This document shows, piece after piece, positions 1-4,767 of a stretch of 5,034 bases of DNA. The position numbers and the translations under genes are program-made. This DNA comes from Candidatus Pelagibacterales bacterium (GTDB lineage Bacteria > Pseudomonadota > Alphaproteobacteria > Pelagibacterales > AG-422-B15), in contig JADHQX010000118.1 in the NCBI GenBank assembly GCA_016777745.1, positions 1-5,034 of the forward strand, written 5' to 3'. Under the pieces are notes generated by a model. That model ran no database searches, was not told where the DNA came from, and saw nothing but the letters and a program-made list of their open reading frames with translations. How positions within the stretch are numbered: position 1 is the stretch's first letter; each line of letters opens with the position of its first letter.

Positions 1-78
1 AACATAAAAGACGAAAATGGAAATCTTTTGACAAACTATCAAGTTAAAAAACTAAGAAAAAATAAGATTAAAGTTTAG
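1..78 (+). CDS. C-terminal end of an unidentified protein (partial, 5' end outside window)
   Basis: Frame 1 is open from the window edge to a TAG at 76-78 and encodes 25 residues, beginning NIKDENGNLL and ending KLRKNKIKV. It is the only frame on either strand that stays open across this stretch. The tail is hydrophilic and lysine-rich, which fits a soluble protein's C-terminus, but no family can be recognised from so few residues. It converges on the acetyltransferase gene at 284-784, and both probably end at the terminator at 241-280. The reading frame could be a chance opening in AT-rich DNA. Confidence 0.45.
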   Translation, partial: NIKDENGNLLTNYQVKKLRKNKIKV

Positions 79-240
79 TACAGATTTTTTAAAATTTTTA
101 AGGACAACTTACAAAGTCCTTCCAAAATTTCAGATTTTCTCAACGAAGTTTTCAACGAAGGTCATCAAAAAGATGAGTAATCACTTGATAATTTCAAAAA
201 GGTAGAAGAATGTAATCTCAAAAACCCAAATCAAAAATTC
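79..240. other. Non-coding spacer with one short hairpin and a 9-bp direct repeat
   Basis: No start-to-stop frame of useful length is seen here. A 6-bp perfect stem (AAGGAC at 100-105, GTCCTT at 116-121, 10-nt loop) lies 21 nt after the preceding stop, but no T-run follows it. TCAACGAAG is repeated at 140-148 and 152-160. The stretch is probably a 3' untranslated region ending at the terminator at 241-280. A small RNA cannot be excluded, but no promoter was recognised. Confidence 0.4.
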
Positions 241-280
241 AAAAAAGGCAGAGAATTCAACACTCTCTGCCTTTTTTTTT
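241..280. terminator. Strong bidirectional intrinsic terminator
   Basis: A perfect 8-bp GC-rich stem, GGCAGAGA (247-254) with TCTCTGCC (264-271), encloses a 9-nt loop. It has nine T on the right (272-280) and six A on the left (241-246), so it can terminate transcription from either side. It lies between the convergent partial gene ending at 78 and the acetyltransferase gene whose stop codon is at 284-286. Confidence 0.9.
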
Positions 281-283
281 GTT

Positions 284-784
284 TTAAGTTTTCAATGTCT
301 TTTCAAAATATTCAAAATAATTATCCTTTTTCAAATTCGGATTATTGTGTGTCTTATGTTTTCTTTTATCAAATTTAATCAATTTAAAGTTATTTTTCTT
401 AAAACATTGTTCAGATCTTTTGTTAGTTTTTATTATTAAGCAGACTATTTTTTTTGGTTTGTAAATCTTAGTAAATTTTTTTATTGATAGTTTTAAAAAC
501 TTTGTACCCAAACCTTGGTTACAATGTTTTGAAAGAATTCCGATAGAGACTTCATAGTTTTTTTTATTTATATGATCGAATCTTGTAAAACCAAATTTGT
601 AGTTTTTAATCTTCCCAATAAAAATTTTAGATTTTGAAATGAATAATTTATATTGTAACCATGATTTCCATATTTTAAAGGTGGGAATACGAGATATAGA
701 TCTTAAATGTCCTTTATTAACAGATTCTCGATGAATTTTGAAAAGTAACTTTGCGTCAGATAAATTACAATTAATTAATTTCAT
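284..784 (-). CDS. GNAT-family N-acetyltransferase, surface-sugar (PseH-like) type
   Basis: This 166-aa protein probably transfers an acetyl group from acetyl-CoA to an amine. The acetyl-CoA loop is at residues 86-97, where NQGLGT (89-94) precedes helix KFLKLSIKKF. The last conserved strand and helix are at 114-135, with N121, S124, F128 and NNF typical of GNAT motif B. The layout W42...KIFIGKI...GFTRFD...YEVSIGIL resembles acetyltransferases acting on amino-sugar nucleotides for surface glycans or flagellin sugars; the substrate is inferred from that resemblance. The usual Arg/Gln that opens the pyrophosphate loop aligns with C88, a mild deviation. The ATG at 784 has no clear Shine-Dalgarno. 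The gene is extremely AT-rich and lysine-rich like the histidine genes, unlike the small-gene cluster at 1076-2558. A 16-bp sequence at its 3' end recurs at 2975-2990. Confidence 0.8.
   Translation of the reverse strand: MKLINCNLSDAKLLFKIHRESVNKGHLRSISRIPTFKIWKSWLQYKLFISKSKIFIGKIKNYKFGFTRFDHINKKNYEVSIGILSKHCNQGLGTKFLKLSIKKFTKIYKPKKIVCLIIKTNKRSEQCFKKNNFKLIKFDKRKHKTHNNPNLKKDNYFEYFEKTLKT
291..306 (+). repeat. 16-bp direct repeat, left copy (possible element boundary)
   Basis: TTCAATGTCTTTTCAA is identical to 2975-2990. It lies in the last codons of the acetyltransferase gene. The flanking bases differ on both sides, so the identity is exactly 16 bp. It may be one end of the inserted segment; no integrase is present to support this. 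Confidence 0.45.
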
Positions 785-866
785 TATAAATATTTGGAAA
801 TAATTTTAATTTTAGGAAAAATATTGTTTTTAAAGGCAAATATTTTTAGATTATCTATTTCTGGGC

Positions 867-898
867 GGTATGTAAGTTTCATTTACTAATTACATACC
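867..898. repeat. Perfect 9-bp inverted repeat
   Basis: GGTATGTAA (867-875) pairs with TTACATACC (890-898) across 14 nt. There is no T-run on either side, so it is not an ordinary terminator. It could be an operator for the ribbon-helix-helix protein, a recombination arm pair or an RNA hairpin. The function is unknown. Confidence 0.5.
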
Positions 899-1009
899 AC
901 AATACAATCCAAAAAAAAATAATTAAACATCACAAATAGTTGTTTGAAGTTCTACATTACAGATATTATGTCTAATAATCTCTTCATTTAAAATAGTAAA
1001 TGTAAAGAT

Positions 1010-1045
1010 TGGTGTCAGTGGAACTTTAAAAAACCACCGACACCA
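1010..1045 (-). terminator. Stable hairpin at the end of the small-gene operon (possible terminator)
   Basis: On the plus strand TGGTGTC (1010-1016) pairs with GACACCA (1039-1045). After one A-C mismatch, GTGG (1018-1021) pairs with CCAC (1034-1037), leaving a 12-nt loop. It starts 31 nt past the stop of the ribbon-helix-helix gene, where a terminator for the minus-strand operon would be expected. The minus strand continues with AATCTTTAC, only a weak T-run, so termination may be inefficient or the hairpin may instead protect the 3' end. Confidence 0.5.
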
Positions 1046-1075
1046 TTTGAGTTAATGTAATACTTAAATACTTAA

Positions 1076-1240
1076 TTATTTATTTGTTTTTAGTGTGTAG
1101 GATTTCATAAAGTTTTCAACTACCCAAGATTTTGTTTGTAATCTTTCTTTTGTTGCTTTCTTAAACTCTTCATATACTTCTGGTTTAATTGCTAAATTAA
1201 CTTTTCTTTTGTCTTCTTGTTTCTTTTCTGTGTTAAACAT
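1076..1240 (-). CDS. Small ribbon-helix-helix (CopG/Arc-type) DNA-binding protein
   Basis: This 54-aa protein starts at ATG 1240 and stops with TAA at 1076-1078. The start is supported by a GAGG Shine-Dalgarno (1247-1250), six bases before the ATG. After a charged N-terminal arm (MFNTEKKQEDKRK), residues 13-18 (KVNLAI) form a DNA-contacting beta strand. Residues 20-34 (PEVYEEFKKATKERL) form helix A and 38-48 (SWVVENFMKSY) helix B, the classic fold in which dimers read short operator repeats. Small proteins of this kind autoregulate plasmid, phage and toxin-antitoxin operons. Here it is the last gene of the minus-strand cluster and may repress it or control copy number. No toxin partner was recognised. 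Candidate operators are the palindrome at 2594-2613 and the TACGCA repeats at 2823-2898. Confidence 0.75.
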   Translation of the reverse strand: MFNTEKKQEDKRKVNLAIKPEVYEEFKKATKERLQTKSWVVENFMKSYTLKTNK

Positions 1241-1296
1241 CTTATTCCTCTATTGTTGCTGATTAACTTGTTTAAGAATTTACATTAACAATTTCT

Positions 1297-1680
1297 TTAA
1301 TCTTTAATATCGTATGAGATTTTTACATCGCCAATGATTTCATCTACTATTCTCGTCCATAATCTCATTGAATGGGCATCTGTTGCTGAATGACCCAATG
1401 ATTTTAAATGGTCAAGGAAGTTTTGTTTCTTTGTAATCAATCTATTGTAAGTAAGCATATCTTCAAATTCAGCAGTTACTTTGTCTGTATCAAAATAAAC
1501 TTTCTGTTCTTTAAACTGATTTGATTTCTTAATCGCTCTTATGTCATACAAACCACCAACATTATGTTTAGACATTTGTTCTACCTTCGCTTGATACTGT
1601 CTTTCTTGTTCTCTTCTATCTTCCGCATTTTTTATCGCTACTCTTCTCAACTGTTCTGTGTTCATTGGTATTAAACTCAT
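1297..1680 (-). CDS. Hypothetical protein, 127 aa, charged N-terminal helix
   Basis: The family is not recognised. The start at ATG 1680 has an AGGAG ribosome-binding site (1689-1693) with 8-nt spacing. The TGA of the preceding gene overlaps this start in an ATGA, which argues that both are real and translationally coupled. Residues 7-37 are rich in R, E, Q and K and probably form a long helix or coiled coil. Residues 75-120 look mainly helical and carry SLGHSATDAHS and MRLWTRIVDEII. No signal peptide or membrane segment is seen. With its neighbours it belongs to the small-gene cluster. A role in replication, regulation or helper interaction is only guessed from context. Confidence 0.75.
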   Translation of the reverse strand: MSLIPMNTEQLRRVAIKNAEDRREQERQYQAKVEQMSKHNVGGLYDIRAIKKSNQFKEQKVYFDTDKVTAEFEDMLTYNRLITKKQNFLDHLKSLGHSATDAHSMRLWTRIVDEIIGDVKISYDIKD

Positions 1681-1838
1681 ATTTTTTTCTCCTGTTTTGC
1701 CTTTGTCATTTGTTCTGTTTTAACCTTGTTCATCTCTTCAACAATGTCCTCAATTTTAGACATTGCCTTTAATCTTTCTTTTTTTGAAATATGTTTATCT
1801 ACTTCACTCATCATTGTTTTAATTTTTTGTGTAATCAT
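1677..1838 (-). CDS. Small hypothetical helical protein, 53 aa, overlapping both neighbours
   Basis: The frame runs from ATG 1838 to TGA at 1677-1679. Its start shares an ATGA with the stop of the 80-aa gene upstream, and its stop shares an ATGA with the start of the 127-aa gene downstream. AAGAGGAG at 1849-1856 is a good ribosome-binding site 10 nt before the start. The protein is lysine- and glutamate-rich (MITQKIKTMMSEVDK at the start, KAKQEKKI at the end), probably a single helix or coiled coil, with no membrane segment. The double overlap is the main reason to accept so short a gene. The function is unknown. Confidence 0.65.
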   Translation of the reverse strand: MITQKIKTMMSEVDKHISKKERLKAMSKIEDIVEEMNKVKTEQMTKAKQEKKI

Positions 1839-2077
1839 ATTGGTAAAACTCCTCTTGTTTCTTTACCTTTGAAACTTTGTAGAAACTCTTTGTTCTTTCC
1901 TGTTTGAATTAAATACTTATCTATTCTATCTAGTATTTTTCTTGCTCTAACTTCTTGTAAAGTTTCTGCCTTTTCATTCTTAATTGTATAAAGGCATAAT
2001 CTGATAATCTCGTTCATATAGTAGTGAGATATTTTGATTACTCCTTCTTGTCCTTTTTTGTATCTTACACAACTCAT
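1835..2077 (-). CDS. Hypothetical protein, 80 aa
   Basis: The family is not recognised. The start at ATG 2077 is fixed by a strong AAGGAG at 2084-2089 that overlaps the TAA of the Rep-like gene, with 10 nt between the two genes. A hydrophobic stretch around residues 15-31 (IKISHYYMNEIIRLCLY) is too polar for a membrane helix and probably packs in a small helical fold. Residues 40-60 are an amphipathic charged helix (TLQEVRARKILDRIDKY). The stop overlaps the start of the 53-aa gene (ATGA). The tight packing indicates one transcript with the Rep-like gene. Confidence 0.75.
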   Translation of the reverse strand: MSCVRYKKGQEGVIKISHYYMNEIIRLCLYTIKNEKAETLQEVRARKILDRIDKYLIQTGKNKEFLQSFKGKETRGVLPI

Positions 2078-2087
2078 TTTTCTCTCC

Positions 2088-2558
2088 TTAATGTCTGCTA
2101 TGTTTGTTTTCTAATCCTAAATTAACATCATCATAAAAATCTCTAATGTTGTATGACGATATTCTTTCTTCTGTTCCAAAATACTTTTTCTTTACATACA
2201 AATCAAAATTCAAATGTTTGTTTTTAATTCCAATTGAATGCCAAGCACATCTTGCTCTCATAATAACTAATTCAACATTATGAATTGGTGGCACTATTAG
2301 AAAGATATGAGAGTGTGTGTGTTGTGCTGTTCTTTGGTGCCAACAATCAAATATAATTCTTTCACTTAATTTCTTCTGCCATTTGCCTTTAATGAAGTGT
2401 TTATTCACTATGGCAGATAATAGGGAGAGATTTTTATCTAAACTTTCAAAACTCATTTGAGTTCTAGTATTCGCCACTATTTCATAATCAGTTCTTATGT
2501 CTTTATTTTGGACATAACTATCAATCAAATCTTGCTTTTGCTTTGTACTTAATTTCAT
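2088..2558 (-). CDS. Possible HUH-endonuclease-like replication initiator (Rep), 156 aa
   Basis: The key feature is QHTHSHIFLIVP at residues 79-90. H82 and H84, followed by a hydrophobic strand and P90, match the metal-binding HxH strand of HUH nucleases that nick DNA to start rolling-circle replication. The region before it (SLDKNLSLLSAIVNKHF at 39-55, then KLSERIIFDCWHQ at 63-75) fits the helix and strand that precede the HUH strand in small Rep proteins. The nucleophile could be Y136 in SSYNIRDF, with R139 where YxxK has lysine; Y121 in YVKK is the alternative. The protein is small and has no helicase domain. It is first in the minus-strand operon and lies beside a gene-free, repeat-rich region that could be its origin. 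The ATG at 2558 has only a weak GAGAG upstream. Identification is by motif alone; an RNA-processing or unrelated histidine-rich protein is possible. Confidence 0.5.
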   Translation of the reverse strand: MKLSTKQKQDLIDSYVQNKDIRTDYEIVANTRTQMSFESLDKNLSLLSAIVNKHFIKGKWQKKLSERIIFDCWHQRTAQHTHSHIFLIVPPIHNVELVIMRARCAWHSIGIKNKHLNFDLYVKKKYFGTEERISSYNIRDFYDDVNLGLENKHSRH

Positions 2559-2593
2559 TAACTCTCACTTTGTATCTGCCATAGGTTAAACAA

Positions 2594-2613
2594 TCGTCAT
2601 TTTTTGATGACGA
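2594..2613. promoter_or_regulatory. 7-bp palindrome upstream of the Rep-like gene (possible operator)
   Basis: TCGTCAT (2594-2600) and ATGACGA (2607-2613) flank TTTTTG. The palindrome sits 36-55 bp before the Rep-like ATG, a typical place for an autoregulatory operator or a leader hairpin. The ribbon-helix-helix protein of the same operon is a natural candidate ligand. No clear -35/-10 pair was found around it. Confidence 0.35.
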
Positions 2614-2692
2614 GAACAATGACCGAAGAAATACTTTCTAACCAACTATCGTAGATAATATGGCATATTCATATCTCTATGTTTATTTATAC

Positions 2693-2720
2693 ATCTTCAT
2701 CTTTGAAGATTTATTTTTTT
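2693..2720 (+). terminator. Plus-strand terminator-like hairpin
   Basis: ATCTTCA (2693-2699) and TGAAGAT (2704-2710) form a 7-bp stem with a TCTT tetraloop. TTATTTTTTT follows on the plus strand, as in an intrinsic terminator. The stem is AT-rich and modest. No plus-strand gene precedes it, so any transcript it ends would be a non-coding RNA or read-through opposite the Rep-like gene. Confidence 0.4.
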
Positions 2721-2744
2721 TAAAATTATTTTTAGAAGAAAAAA

Positions 2745-2813
2745 TAAATGCCGATATATTTCTCTTTTAGATGAAGTGCGCTACTCGCATAACCATATTA
2801 AAAATGGCATTTA
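2745..2813. repeat. 8-bp inverted repeat enclosing a small hairpin
   Basis: TAAATGCC (2745-2752) and GGCATTTA (2806-2813) enclose 53 nt. Inside is a small hairpin, TGCG (2777-2780) and CGCA (2786-2789) around the loop CTACT. A second small stem, CCAT (2793-2796) with ATGG (2804-2807), overlaps the right arm. Nested structures of this kind occur at rolling-circle origins, where the nick lies in an exposed loop. The match is structural only. Confidence 0.35.
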
Positions 2814-2822
2814 ATTAAAGCA

Positions 2823-2898
2823 TACGCAAAAGTGTTTTTTACGCAGTTTGATATAATGGGTGTACGCAAAAAGAAGAGGAATAAAGATGTGGTGCGTA
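2823..2898. repeat. Iteron-like TACGCA repeats (three direct, one inverted)
   Basis: TACGCA occurs at 2823-2828, 2840-2845 and 2863-2868, the first and third extended to TACGCAAAA. An inverted copy, TGCGTA, is at 2893-2898. In DNA this AT-rich, four copies of a CG-containing hexamer within 76 bp look like protein-binding sites. They flank and bracket the promoter at 2849-2857. The Rep-like protein or the ribbon-helix-helix protein could bind them. Confidence 0.5.
2849..2857 (+). promoter_or_regulatory. Extended -10 promoter, plus strand
   Basis: TGATATAAT at 2849-2857 is a perfect extended -10 element (TGnTATAAT). No good -35 is present at 16-18 bp, which extended -10 promoters do not require. 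Transcription would begin near 2864. The RNA would open with one TACGCA and could reach the palindrome at 2910-2940. No convincing protein-coding gene follows. A four-codon frame (MWCV) at 2887-2901 has an AGAGGA before it. Confidence 0.45.
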
Positions 2899-2942
2899 TA
2901 GATAATAGGAAGACATTGAATATCAATTATTCAATGTCTTTT
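2864..2942 (+). ncRNA. Possible small structured RNA of about 80 nt
   Basis: Starting from the extended -10 element, the predicted RNA would have a 5' stem ACGCA (2864-2868) with TGCGT (2893-2897). Its loop carries the purine-rich AGAGGA. A 12-bp 3' hairpin (2910-2940) ending in TTTT follows. This is the plan of a small regulatory RNA with a weak terminator. It is a prediction from promoter and structure only; the same palindrome may instead be a DNA recombination site. Confidence 0.3.
2910..2940. repeat. Perfect 12-7-12 palindrome (recombination-core-like or terminator)
   Basis: AAGACATTGAAT (2910-2921) and ATTCAATGTCTT (2929-2940) are perfect inverted copies around the 7-nt spacer ATCAATT. 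Two arms of about 12 bp around 6-8 bp is the geometry of tyrosine-recombinase core sites. As RNA it would be a stable hairpin followed by a short T-run, a weak terminator. The arm sequence TTCAATGTCT recurs at 2975-2984, 2986-2995 and 291-300. Confidence 0.5.
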
Positions 2943-2974
2943 ACTTCCGAGTTTAAGTTCTAAATAAATTCAAC

Positions 2975-2990
2975 TTCAATGTCTTTTCAA
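2975..2990 (+). repeat. 16-bp direct repeat, right copy (possible element boundary)
   Basis: TTCAATGTCTTTTCAA is identical to 291-306, about 2.7 kb away. It overlaps the next TTCAATGTCT copy (2986-2995), so this end has a tandem array. It lies 63 bp before the hisG stop codon, between the structured region and the histidine operon. Confidence 0.45.
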
Positions 2991-3052
2991 TGTCTGATGA
3001 TTGATAATGGGATATTTACTTATCTTTTTATCTTTGGAATGCGAATGTAATT

Positions 3053-3733
3053 TCACCTACCCAAAGATTTTAAAAAAGGCTGCAATTTTGCAGCCTTTTT
3101 TTTTGCAATAAATAAACATGCTCTAGAGCTAAGTATCAATCCATCTTTAAGAATACGTAGATTATTATCAGCCAAAGTTTTCCCTGTAGAAGTAATATCA
3201 GTAATTATTTCTGAAGAGCCTATAAAAGGATAAGTTTCTGTAGCACCAAGACTAGGTATCAATTTGTATTGAGTAACTCCTTTTGAAATCAAAAAATCGT
3301 TAGTTAAATTCGGATACTTAGTTGCTACTCTCAGTCTAGTATTTCTTTTGGATCTTATATCAAATGATATTTCTTCGAGGTCAGCAATTGTCTGCACATC
3401 TATCCAGTCATCTGGCACGGCAACTACTAGGTTCGCATTTCCATATTCAAGATTTTTTTGAATATTTATTTTATCTTGTAAATTTTTGGCTGATTCTTTT
3501 AAAAGATCTAGACCTGATACACCAATATCTAAAGTTCCGTCTCCTAATCTTTGAATGATTTCTTTAGCGTGAAGAAATATAATTTTAAAATTGGGTTTAT
3601 TATCAATAGTACCGAAATAATTTCTCTCTTTTTCACTTTGTACAATTTTTAGCCCGCTATCATTAAAGAACGATATTGATTTTTCTTTTAATCGCCCTTT
3701 GCTTGGTAAACCTATAGTAATTAAATCTTTCAT
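3053..3733 (-). CDS. hisG: ATP phosphoribosyltransferase catalytic subunit, short form
   Basis: HisG joins ATP and PRPP to give N1-(5-phosphoribosyl)-ATP and pyrophosphate, the first and feedback-controlled step of histidine synthesis. The 226-aa length is that of the short form, which lacks the C-terminal histidine-binding domain and needs HisZ. Visible motifs are GLPSKGRLKE (8-17), the GDGTLDIGVSGLDLL block (64-78) and the PRPP-binding signature EIITDITSTGKTL (175-187). Its ATG overlaps the hisZ stop in an ATGA, so the two subunits are translationally coupled. The oddity is the 3' end: a strong terminator hairpin (3072-3104) lies inside codons 211-221, and the stop follows its T-run by about 17 nt. 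The tail KKKAAKLQPFLKSLGR may therefore be a variable or altered C-terminus. Confidence 0.95.
   Translation of the reverse strand: MKDLITIGLPSKGRLKEKSISFFNDSGLKIVQSEKERNYFGTIDNKPNFKIIFLHAKEIIQRLGDGTLDIGVSGLDLLKESAKNLQDKINIQKNLEYGNANLVVAVPDDWIDVQTIADLEEISFDIRSKRNTRLRVATKYPNLTNDFLISKGVTQYKLIPSLGATETYPFIGSSEIITDITSTGKTLADNNLRILKDGLILSSRACLFIAKKKAAKLQPFLKSLGR
3072..3104. terminator. Bidirectional terminator hairpin inside the hisG 3' end
   Basis: GGCTGC (3078-3083) and GCAGCC (3090-3095) form a GC-rich stem with a 6-nt loop. It has six A on the left (3072-3077) and nine T on the right (3096-3104), so it can work in either direction. For hisG transcripts the T-run is read at 3077-3072, before the stop codon at 3053-3055. 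It is the only evident terminator for the histidine operon in this window. On the plus strand it would block transcription coming from the repeat-rich region. Confidence 0.8.
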
Positions 3734-4767
3734 ATATTTTTTAAGTTAATTGCTGCACCAACGGCTGGAATATTCTTTTTAGCTCCTAAGCTTTTTAACA
3801 AATCATCATAACGACCGCCTGAAGCAATTTCTTTTGTCCCTGACATTACTTCAAAAACAATTCCAGTATAATATTCTACATCTCTACCAAAATTAGCGAT
3901 AAAATTAATATCTTGATTAAGTTTTTTAAGATTTTGAATAGACTTAAAATTTTTAAATATATTTTCTTTTAGGTTATTTTTTTTTGAAAAATTTAATAAC
4001 TTGTCATCAACTTCTGAAAGTTTGCAATTAATTTTTAAAAAATTTTTAATAATTTTTACAATTTTTTTTCCATTAGCAAAAGATCTTGGGTCTTTTATCT
4101 TTTTATCAAATCTTTTTAAAATTTCTGATATTGATCTACCGGCAACTATTTTAGTTTGATCTAGTTTTTTCATTTCATAAAATCTTTTTTTATCCGCATT
4201 AAAAGTTACTGCGTCAATATCTGTATTTTTTTCTAATCTCTTTAAAAGTTCTTCAAAGTAACTTGGTCTCCAAAAGTGTCTAATTAGTCTTAACTTCCAT
4301 CTTTCAGGCATCTCGAGAGCGTTGATTAAGCTCTTAAATAAACTTATGTCACCTACTTTAATTTTAATTTTTTTTATTTTAATTTTTTTTGCTGAACTTA
4401 AGATTGTGCTGATTACTTTAAAATCATCTTTAATGAGGTTTTTTGAACCTAGAATTTCGATACCTAATTGATCATTAATAAAGTTTGCGCCTTTGCCTTC
4501 TGATCTTCTGTATGCTTGACCAGAATAATAAATTTTTGAAGAAGATTTTTTTTGCAAGAAACTTATACATGATGCAACTGTTAAGTCCGGTCTTAAACAC
4601 ATCGTTTTTCCATCTTCACTATCAAAAGTAAGCATTGAACTTCTAAATTTTTCTCCAGATCTTTCTATAATATAATCTGAGTCTAAAAGAACGTCTGGTT
4701 CTGATAAAACAAAACCATTTGTCTTAAAGGTTTTAATTATTGCTTCAGATAATTTTTTTGATTTCAT
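3730..4767 (-). CDS. hisZ: ATP phosphoribosyltransferase regulatory subunit
   Basis: HisZ is a catalytically inactive relative of histidyl-tRNA synthetase that binds short-form HisG and gives it activity and histidine feedback. At 345 aa it has the class II synthetase core but no anticodon-binding domain. Visible motifs are LRPDLT (58-63), YYSGQAYRRSE (80-90) and QLGIE (100-104). Further on are YYTGIVFEV (299-307), GGRYDDLL (317-324) and AVGAAINL (335-342). The middle, 125-290, is unusually lysine-rich and low in complexity, reflecting strong AT bias. The start at ATG 4767 lies 23 nt inside hisS; no clear Shine-Dalgarno is seen, so translation probably couples to hisS. The stop overlaps the hisG start (ATGA). 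The order hisS-hisZ-hisG makes a histidine use-and-synthesis operon. Confidence 0.95.
   Translation of the reverse strand: MKSKKLSEAIIKTFKTNGFVLSEPDVLLDSDYIIERSGEKFRSSMLTFDSEDGKTMCLRPDLTVASCISFLQKKSSSKIYYSGQAYRRSEGKGANFINDQLGIEILGSKNLIKDDFKVISTILSSAKKIKIKKIKIKVGDISLFKSLINALEMPERWKLRLIRHFWRPSYFEELLKRLEKNTDIDAVTFNADKKRFYEMKKLDQTKIVAGRSISEILKRFDKKIKDPRSFANGKKIVKIIKNFLKINCKLSEVDDKLLNFSKKNNLKENIFKNFKSIQNLKKLNQDINFIANFGRDVEYYTGIVFEVMSGTKEIASGGRYDDLLKSLGAKKNIPAVGAAINLKNI

Follow-up and report, generated by a model that had tools for sequence, protein, structure and literature searches.

We propose that a 2.8-kb unit of a SAR11 genome is probably a non-autonomous integrative element, one that is excised in trans and copied as a rolling circle started by the product of its lead gene, a minimal single-tyrosine initiator of the HUH type (Rep). 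The unit occupies positions 208-3051 of a 5,034-nucleotide stretch, hereafter the window, which is contig JADHQX010000118.1 of a Candidatus Pelagibacterales bacterium (GCA_016777745.1). SAR11 bacteria are among the most abundant bacteria and are generally regarded as poor in mobile DNA. The coordinates of all features are collected in Table 1.

The borders of the unit were identified by comparison with the hisG region of other genomes. The best 80 of 156 HisG relatives all came, by title, from Pelagibacteraceae or SAR11 (83-96% identical). Nucleotide similarity to the window extends beyond the hisG stop codon in 71 of these 80 loci; the break falls at window positions 3035-3041 in 70 loci and, in L058, at 3025. 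In 67 of the 80 loci groEL, encoded on the opposite strand, ends no more than 60 bp from hisG, and these are empty sites; the distance is 139-6266 bp in a further 12, and the contig of L032 contains no groEL. At empty sites the junction consists of ATTACATTC and then the remainder of the groEL tail. In the window ATTACATTC lies on the hisG side at 3043-3051 and has one more copy at 208-216, and resemblance continues beside these two attachment (att) copies (208-230 against 3043-3065, 83%; 233-249 against 3064-3080, 82%). groEL itself would lie outside the window, a position assigned by analogy with the other genomes. The motif GACATTGAA occurs five times (291, 2912, 2930, 2975 and 2986), always near the ends of the unit, a count reached in 0 of 300 dinucleotide shuffles; a single repeated 16-mer is not significant alone, being seen in 30 of 300. 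The same end layout, with other repeats common to both ends, was found in the G064 copy (ACTTCTTTGAA) and the G312 copy (ACTTCGTTGAA), and the L023 repeat ACTTCATTGAA was seen at the hisG-side end. Two arm-repeat patterns were searched for in viral contigs: one had no match, and the other had a chance match within an unrelated phage gene. Thus the 9-bp core at 208 and 3043, the arm repeats at both ends and the empty sites are those of an integrative element of the tyrosine-integrase kind, here seated at the groEL end, with no tRNA border in the window.

The far border also separates the unit from a neighbour. Because the arm variant CTTCGTTGAA lies outside the far att copy, positions 1-207 most likely belong to another element in tandem, as judged from these repeats. 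We considered whether 1-78 could be the integrase end of the window's own element and rejected this, given the different arm variant and the lack of any match. With 1-207 so assigned, the unit has no integrase of its own: none was found in 208-3051 among open reading frames (ORFs) or in family scans, and the relatives L108, L109 and L110 each have one. A terminator-like hairpin also lies at 3078-3104, inside the 3′ coding end of hisG; in genomes with an empty site, this position could allow it to act for groEL on the opposite strand. Since a hairpin and T-run stand behind each att copy, one in the hisG end and one borne by the element, the element may bring its own groEL terminator.

Relatives of the element were sought in two overlapping draws of 397 Pelagibacteraceae genomes, by a six-frame search with Rep and then by a profile search. 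The first returned three clear Rep relatives, in G064 (41% identity), G312 (39%) and G202 (28%), and the second returned G312 again plus G154 and G358; weak rows from 22 of 25 and 16 of 19 genomes, respectively, were discarded as chance. For the two Rep relatives L116 and L117, those of G154 and G358, stops were reported inside the matched span, yet both have open ORFs (151 and 161 amino acids). All five genomes carry at least part of the same operon with Rep, and three have a tyrosine integrase gene nearby. The G312 element, just after tmRNA, runs A268-Rep-P80-P53-P127-RHH, then a divergent block (a lipoprotein-like protein, two small membrane-like proteins, a small protein and a serine recombinase), P263, P251, a sliding clamp and the tyrosine integrase (phrog_1, E 1.2e-13; PF00589, E 0.0025, below cut-off). 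The clamp (L109:15637-16377) is of T4 type (PF09116, E 3.4e-7; phrog_223, E 1.5e-41) and could link the element to a T4-like helper phage. The G064 element lies between hisG and groEL, the same site as in the window, and contains A268, Rep, RHH, a serine recombinase, P263, P251 and an integrase; the ORFs that stand where P80 and P127 would be could not be identified as such at E 0.01. G202 has Rep, P53, P127, the lipoprotein block and a serine recombinase beside tRNA-Leu and another tyrosine integrase (PF00589, 26.5 bits against a cut-off of 27.1), and G154 and G358 have P127 and the lipoprotein gene beside Rep.

The genes of these elements also occur apart from Rep. Relatives of the G312 integrase were found in 8 of 397 genomes including G312 itself; Rep is near it in G064 and G312 and was not found in the stretches fetched around it in the other six, some of which are short contigs. 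P80 occurs in 2 of 397 genomes, G312 and G260, and G260 carries most of these element genes at tmRNA with no Rep. The tmRNA element at L145:14586-15423 has P80, P127 and a weak RHH match, and no Rep was found there. Among viral contigs (IMG/VR) we found no relative of Rep, P263 or P127, and the serine-recombinase profile found three relatives (28-29% identity). The window aligns with G312 at 75% over 593 bp starting just past the Rep stop codon, and 48 of 53 residues are identical in P53 against 46 of 142 in Rep; judging from these alignments, the Rep gene was apparently swapped as one block.

How a unit without an integrase would move was then considered. A tail of a serine recombinase gene remains in the window, opposite in orientation to that of the full elements, and therefore the mini-element is best read, from its sequence, as a rearranged deletion form. 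An integrase search in six genomes (including those of L023, L053 and L058) gave matches in five, with two matches only in the genome of L053. The single matches, in frames of 309-326 amino acids, may be housekeeping Xer proteins; as most matches are single, the majority of these six, possibly incomplete, genomes show no obvious partner integrase. On balance we lean towards mobilisation in trans. Other inserts at the hisG-groEL site also lack an integrase and carry different or almost no cargo (L023:8660-10780, L058:8660-9540 and L053:940-1140). A 6.3-kb insert between hisG and groEL at L019:1500-7800 contains helicase-like and DNA-methyltransferase-like genes, named by eye, and is perhaps a defence island.

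These same observations bear on whether the island is instead a decayed remnant, its Rep operon stranded and immobile after loss of the integrase. The serine-recombinase relic, the lack of an integrase in 208-3051 and the lack of a second integrase in most checked genomes with similar inserts would all fit such decay. We nevertheless regard it as unlikely, because the five operon ORFs are open, the Rep motifs are intact, arm repeats and att copies are retained at both ends, near-identical Rep clusters comprise 118 and 27 sequences, and integrase-less inserts recur at the site in L023, L053 and L058.

The lead gene itself had been proposed, in a preliminary description made from the sequence alone, to encode an HUH rolling-circle initiator, and this proposal is supported by the conservation of its histidines and tyrosine and by weak matches to replication families. 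Every feature was found where it had been placed: H82-S83-H84 with a hydrophobic strand behind it, P90, the LDKNL segment and Y136-N-I-R139. As a single query, Rep had no informative match in Pfam, PHROGs, NCBIfam, PADLOC or PDB, nor among phages, plasmids, viral contigs and genome contigs, and a protein search returned just four near-identical or partly identical proteins. The wider family surfaced through the genome searches above. A profile search of public proteins then gave 83 relatives, and its biggest clusters comprise 501, 180 and 118 sequences; the members are marine. After 17 of the 83 (short, cut, fused or weak) were kept out, the alignment comprised 67 rows, in all of which H82, S/T83, P90, Y136, K/R139, E/Q75 and N52 are present, with H84 in 66. 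Identity to the window Rep is 19-33% in all rows but two, and many rows are close to one another. Judged on this alignment, the conservation of H82, H84 and Y136 exceeds chance, given rows so divergent from the window protein. In a 72-row alignment that includes fragments and a fused protein, each of the three is conserved in at least 90%. Two public proteins (P0003 and P0004), both among the 17 left out, have a nearly identical Rep N-terminus (71 or 84 amino acids), then a cut or different end, and no tyrosine, which suggests a recombination or assembly chimera.

Motifs II and III follow the HUH plan with some departures. In motif II the middle residue is Ser or Thr, not hydrophobic, and in motif III (YxxK) position 139 is K in 35 rows and R in 32. 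Most rows read VVANT or IVANT in the motif I region, which hhalign aligned with FLTLT of Rep_1, yet this is not UUTU. About half of the members weakly match two Rep family profiles, and all matches fall below the cut-offs. For Rep_1 (PF01446), 33 of the 67 match at E≤1, the best at 22.9 bits against a cut-off of 33.2, and the window Rep itself had no Rep_1 match in the Pfam scan; for REP_ORF2-G2P (PF23343) the figures are 36 of the 67 and 19.2 against 27.8 bits. A PHROGs scan of the 67 gave scattered weak matches, and the 25 of 47 families listed include no replication initiator; no entry of Pfam, PHROGs, NCBIfam or PDB matches the family with confidence. The Rep_1 plasmid initiators share with it the order motif I (putative in the SAR11 proteins), E, HxH, YxxK and weak colinear profile matches. 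The SAR11 proteins differ in being about half as long, in having HSH against HFH of Rep_1 and YxxK or YxxR, and in lacking the N-terminal Cys region (C44, C65, C70 and C73, invariant in 45 Rep_1 rows). The REP_ORF2-G2P match covers the HUH region in the members shown, and, as a difference, no phage morphogenesis gene was recognised beside the window Rep. Taken together, these data make it very probable that the window protein is a genuine HUH Rep of minimal form.

What such a protein does is a separate matter. Integrative elements are often mobilised through nicking by a relaxase. HUH enzymes comprise plasmid relaxases as well as Reps (PMC4176350; PMC6668415), and the protein could thus nick an oriT and let a conjugative system mobilise the excised element, instead of or besides vegetative replication. 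This appears rather improbable, as both nuclease families matched are replication families, the 25 of 31 Pfam families listed for the 67 members include no relaxase family, and no coupling or secretion protein was named among the six island proteins or the scanned proteins of related elements. A fold argument could be made against HUH membership altogether. A first AlphaFold model, built from five rows, had a mean pLDDT of 40 and was discarded; the structure prediction used here is a ferredoxin-like model with five strands at modest confidence, and generic ferredoxin-like folds head its Foldseek lists, as might be expected of some other ferredoxin-like protein with a chance HSH. We consider that very unlikely, since His, E/Q, Tyr and K/R are conserved in HUH order and two Rep families are each matched by about half of the members. 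Lastly, a Y1 HUH transposase (IS200/IS605 or REP-associated type) acting by single-strand transposition would have a similar length and a single tyrosine, and two appear in the Foldseek list (ranks 37 and 44, E 0.16-0.19), but it is highly improbable because the unit is bounded by att copies and arm repeats in the manner of tyrosine-integrase elements, motif III is YxxK/R, and the Rep gene sits within kin operons inside elements at different sites. Those 25 of 31 Pfam families contain no Y1 transposase profile.

Returning to the Rep as initiator, it seems likely that it starts rolling-circle replication of an excised element. Upstream of their Rep operons, L108, L109 and L110 each have three or four clustered GCGTA copies, counts reached in 0-1 of 500 shuffles per region; L116 and L117 each have three GCGTA upstream, at places like those in L110, and a single copy is present in the corresponding stretch of L145, which has no Rep. 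Because visual inspection of these loci supplied the motif, the TGCGTA cluster of the window is a candidate origin, a lead and not a proof. We envisage that the tyrosine integrase of a related element in the same cell would bind the GACATTGAA arm repeats and excise the unit as a circle, and that Rep would bind the TGCGTA iterons upstream of its own gene and nick with Y136. The metal would be held by H82, H84 and E/Q75, residues that have this role in HUH enzymes. Rolling-circle synthesis would then begin via a host or helper polymerase, and copies would reintegrate or exit the cell. A possible repressor of the operon is the small RHH protein.

The remaining content of the window largely agrees with the preliminary description. 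Core histidine genes adjoin the Rep island (hisG, hisZ and the end of hisS), where hisZ is named presumptively, from the look of the gene rather than from a family scan. The four further small genes were confirmed, all on the minus strand, and a GNAT-like gene is an additional one that had gone uncounted. The reported lack of virion and integrase genes also holds: a scan of the six island ORFs gave no integrase, and the sole virion-type match was weak. This match, of P53 to a portal protein (phrog_64, E 0.0049, 49 of 547 positions), was taken as chance.

Table 1. Features of the window, with positions, strand and supporting details.
Feature	Position	Strand	Details
End of second, different element (most likely)	1..207		arm variant CTTCGTTGAA at 151; ORF ends at 78
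att core GAATGTAAT, 9 bp, far side	208..216		
Terminator-like hairpin and T-run adjoining far att	247..280	plus	like groEL-side end of L053 (46 bp, 80%)
GNAT-like acetyltransferase, probable cargo	284..784	minus	PF13302 E 1.3e-4, 23.1 bits, below 25.4 cut-off
Arm-type repeat of far end, TTCAATGTCTTTTCAA	291..306		identical to 2975-2990
Serine recombinase C-terminus relic	923..994	minus	48 bp at 83% to end of L145 gene; HNICNVELQTTICDV vs HNICNTELQPNMCDV in L145
Small Arc/RHH-like protein, possible repressor	1076..1240	minus	weak phrog_3180 match, E 0.0014
P127, operon gene, no function assigned	1297..1680	minus	52/127 amino acids identical to G312 copy
P53, operon gene, no function assigned	1677..1838	minus	48/53 amino acids identical to G312 copy
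P80, operon gene, no function assigned	1835..2077	minus	48/79 amino acids identical to G312 copy
HUH-type rolling-circle replication initiator (Rep; very probable), 156 amino acids	2088..2558	minus	ATG start; motif II H82-S-H84, E/Q75, motif III Y136-x-x-R139
Iteron-like cluster, candidate Rep-binding region	2823..2898		contains every TGCGTA of the window (four); lies between Rep and the arm repeats
Four GACATTGAA arm-type repeats at hisG-side end	2912..2994		
att core GAATGTAAT, 9 bp, hisG side	3043..3051		copy of groEL 3′ end
hisG, host flank	3053..3733	minus	ORF and HisG relatives
hisZ (presumed), host flank	3730..4767	minus	ORF

Several known systems resemble the element in part. Tycheposons (PMC10872708, from the accessible part of the text) are alike in that the integrase-bearing relatives here have a tyrosine recombinase and two of them lie at tmRNA; the window unit differs in having no integrase or tRNA border, in its 2.8-kb size, in its place at the groEL 3′ end and in its HUH Rep. 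Virion-encapsidated integrative elements (VEIMEs), as far as they are covered in the accessible text of PMC10803314, are likewise small marine integrative elements. As a difference, no sign of packaging was found here, and relatives of Rep, P263 and P127 were absent from the IMG/VR search, though packaging may nonetheless occur. The PICMI satellites of Vibrionaceae, in the same text, similarly have a minimal gene set for integration, replication and cargo, but use an integrase, AlpA, primase and Fis, none of which matched among the six island proteins. Charybdis elements are small and marine, with rolling-circle replication proposed, but, in the available portion of their description (PMC12324425), have integrated copies in archaea, no recognised replication gene and a putative structural module. 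A 2007 paper on SAR11 variation names four hypervariable regions, and its text makes no mention of hisG. Among the best matches of a literature search, judged by title and start of abstract and with most subscription papers outside its coverage, no such SAR11 element was found.

A broader and more speculative possibility is that SAR11 has its own lineage of rolling-circle integrative elements, made up of full elements and of mini-elements that parasitise them, with alleles swapped between them and the groEL site shared in tandem. Full elements would then carry an integrase, a serine recombinase and (in G312) the T4-type clamp, which might let them use the replisome of an infecting T4-like phage, and mini-elements would consist of att and arm ends, a Rep operon and cargo. 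Exchange of Rep alleles and arm-repeat variants would under this scheme allow several elements per groEL site in tandem.

In summary, the Rep family looks like a new, minimal kind of rolling-circle starter. The integrase-less inserts with other cargo (L023 and L058) suggest that small gene loads enter repeatedly through the hisG-groEL gap. Moreover, the larger integrase-bearing relatives at the same and other sites hint at a little-known route of gene movement in SAR11. Gene transfer in SAR11 becomes directly testable with such an element, which has a defined insertion site, arm repeats, a putative origin and an apparently new Rep family.
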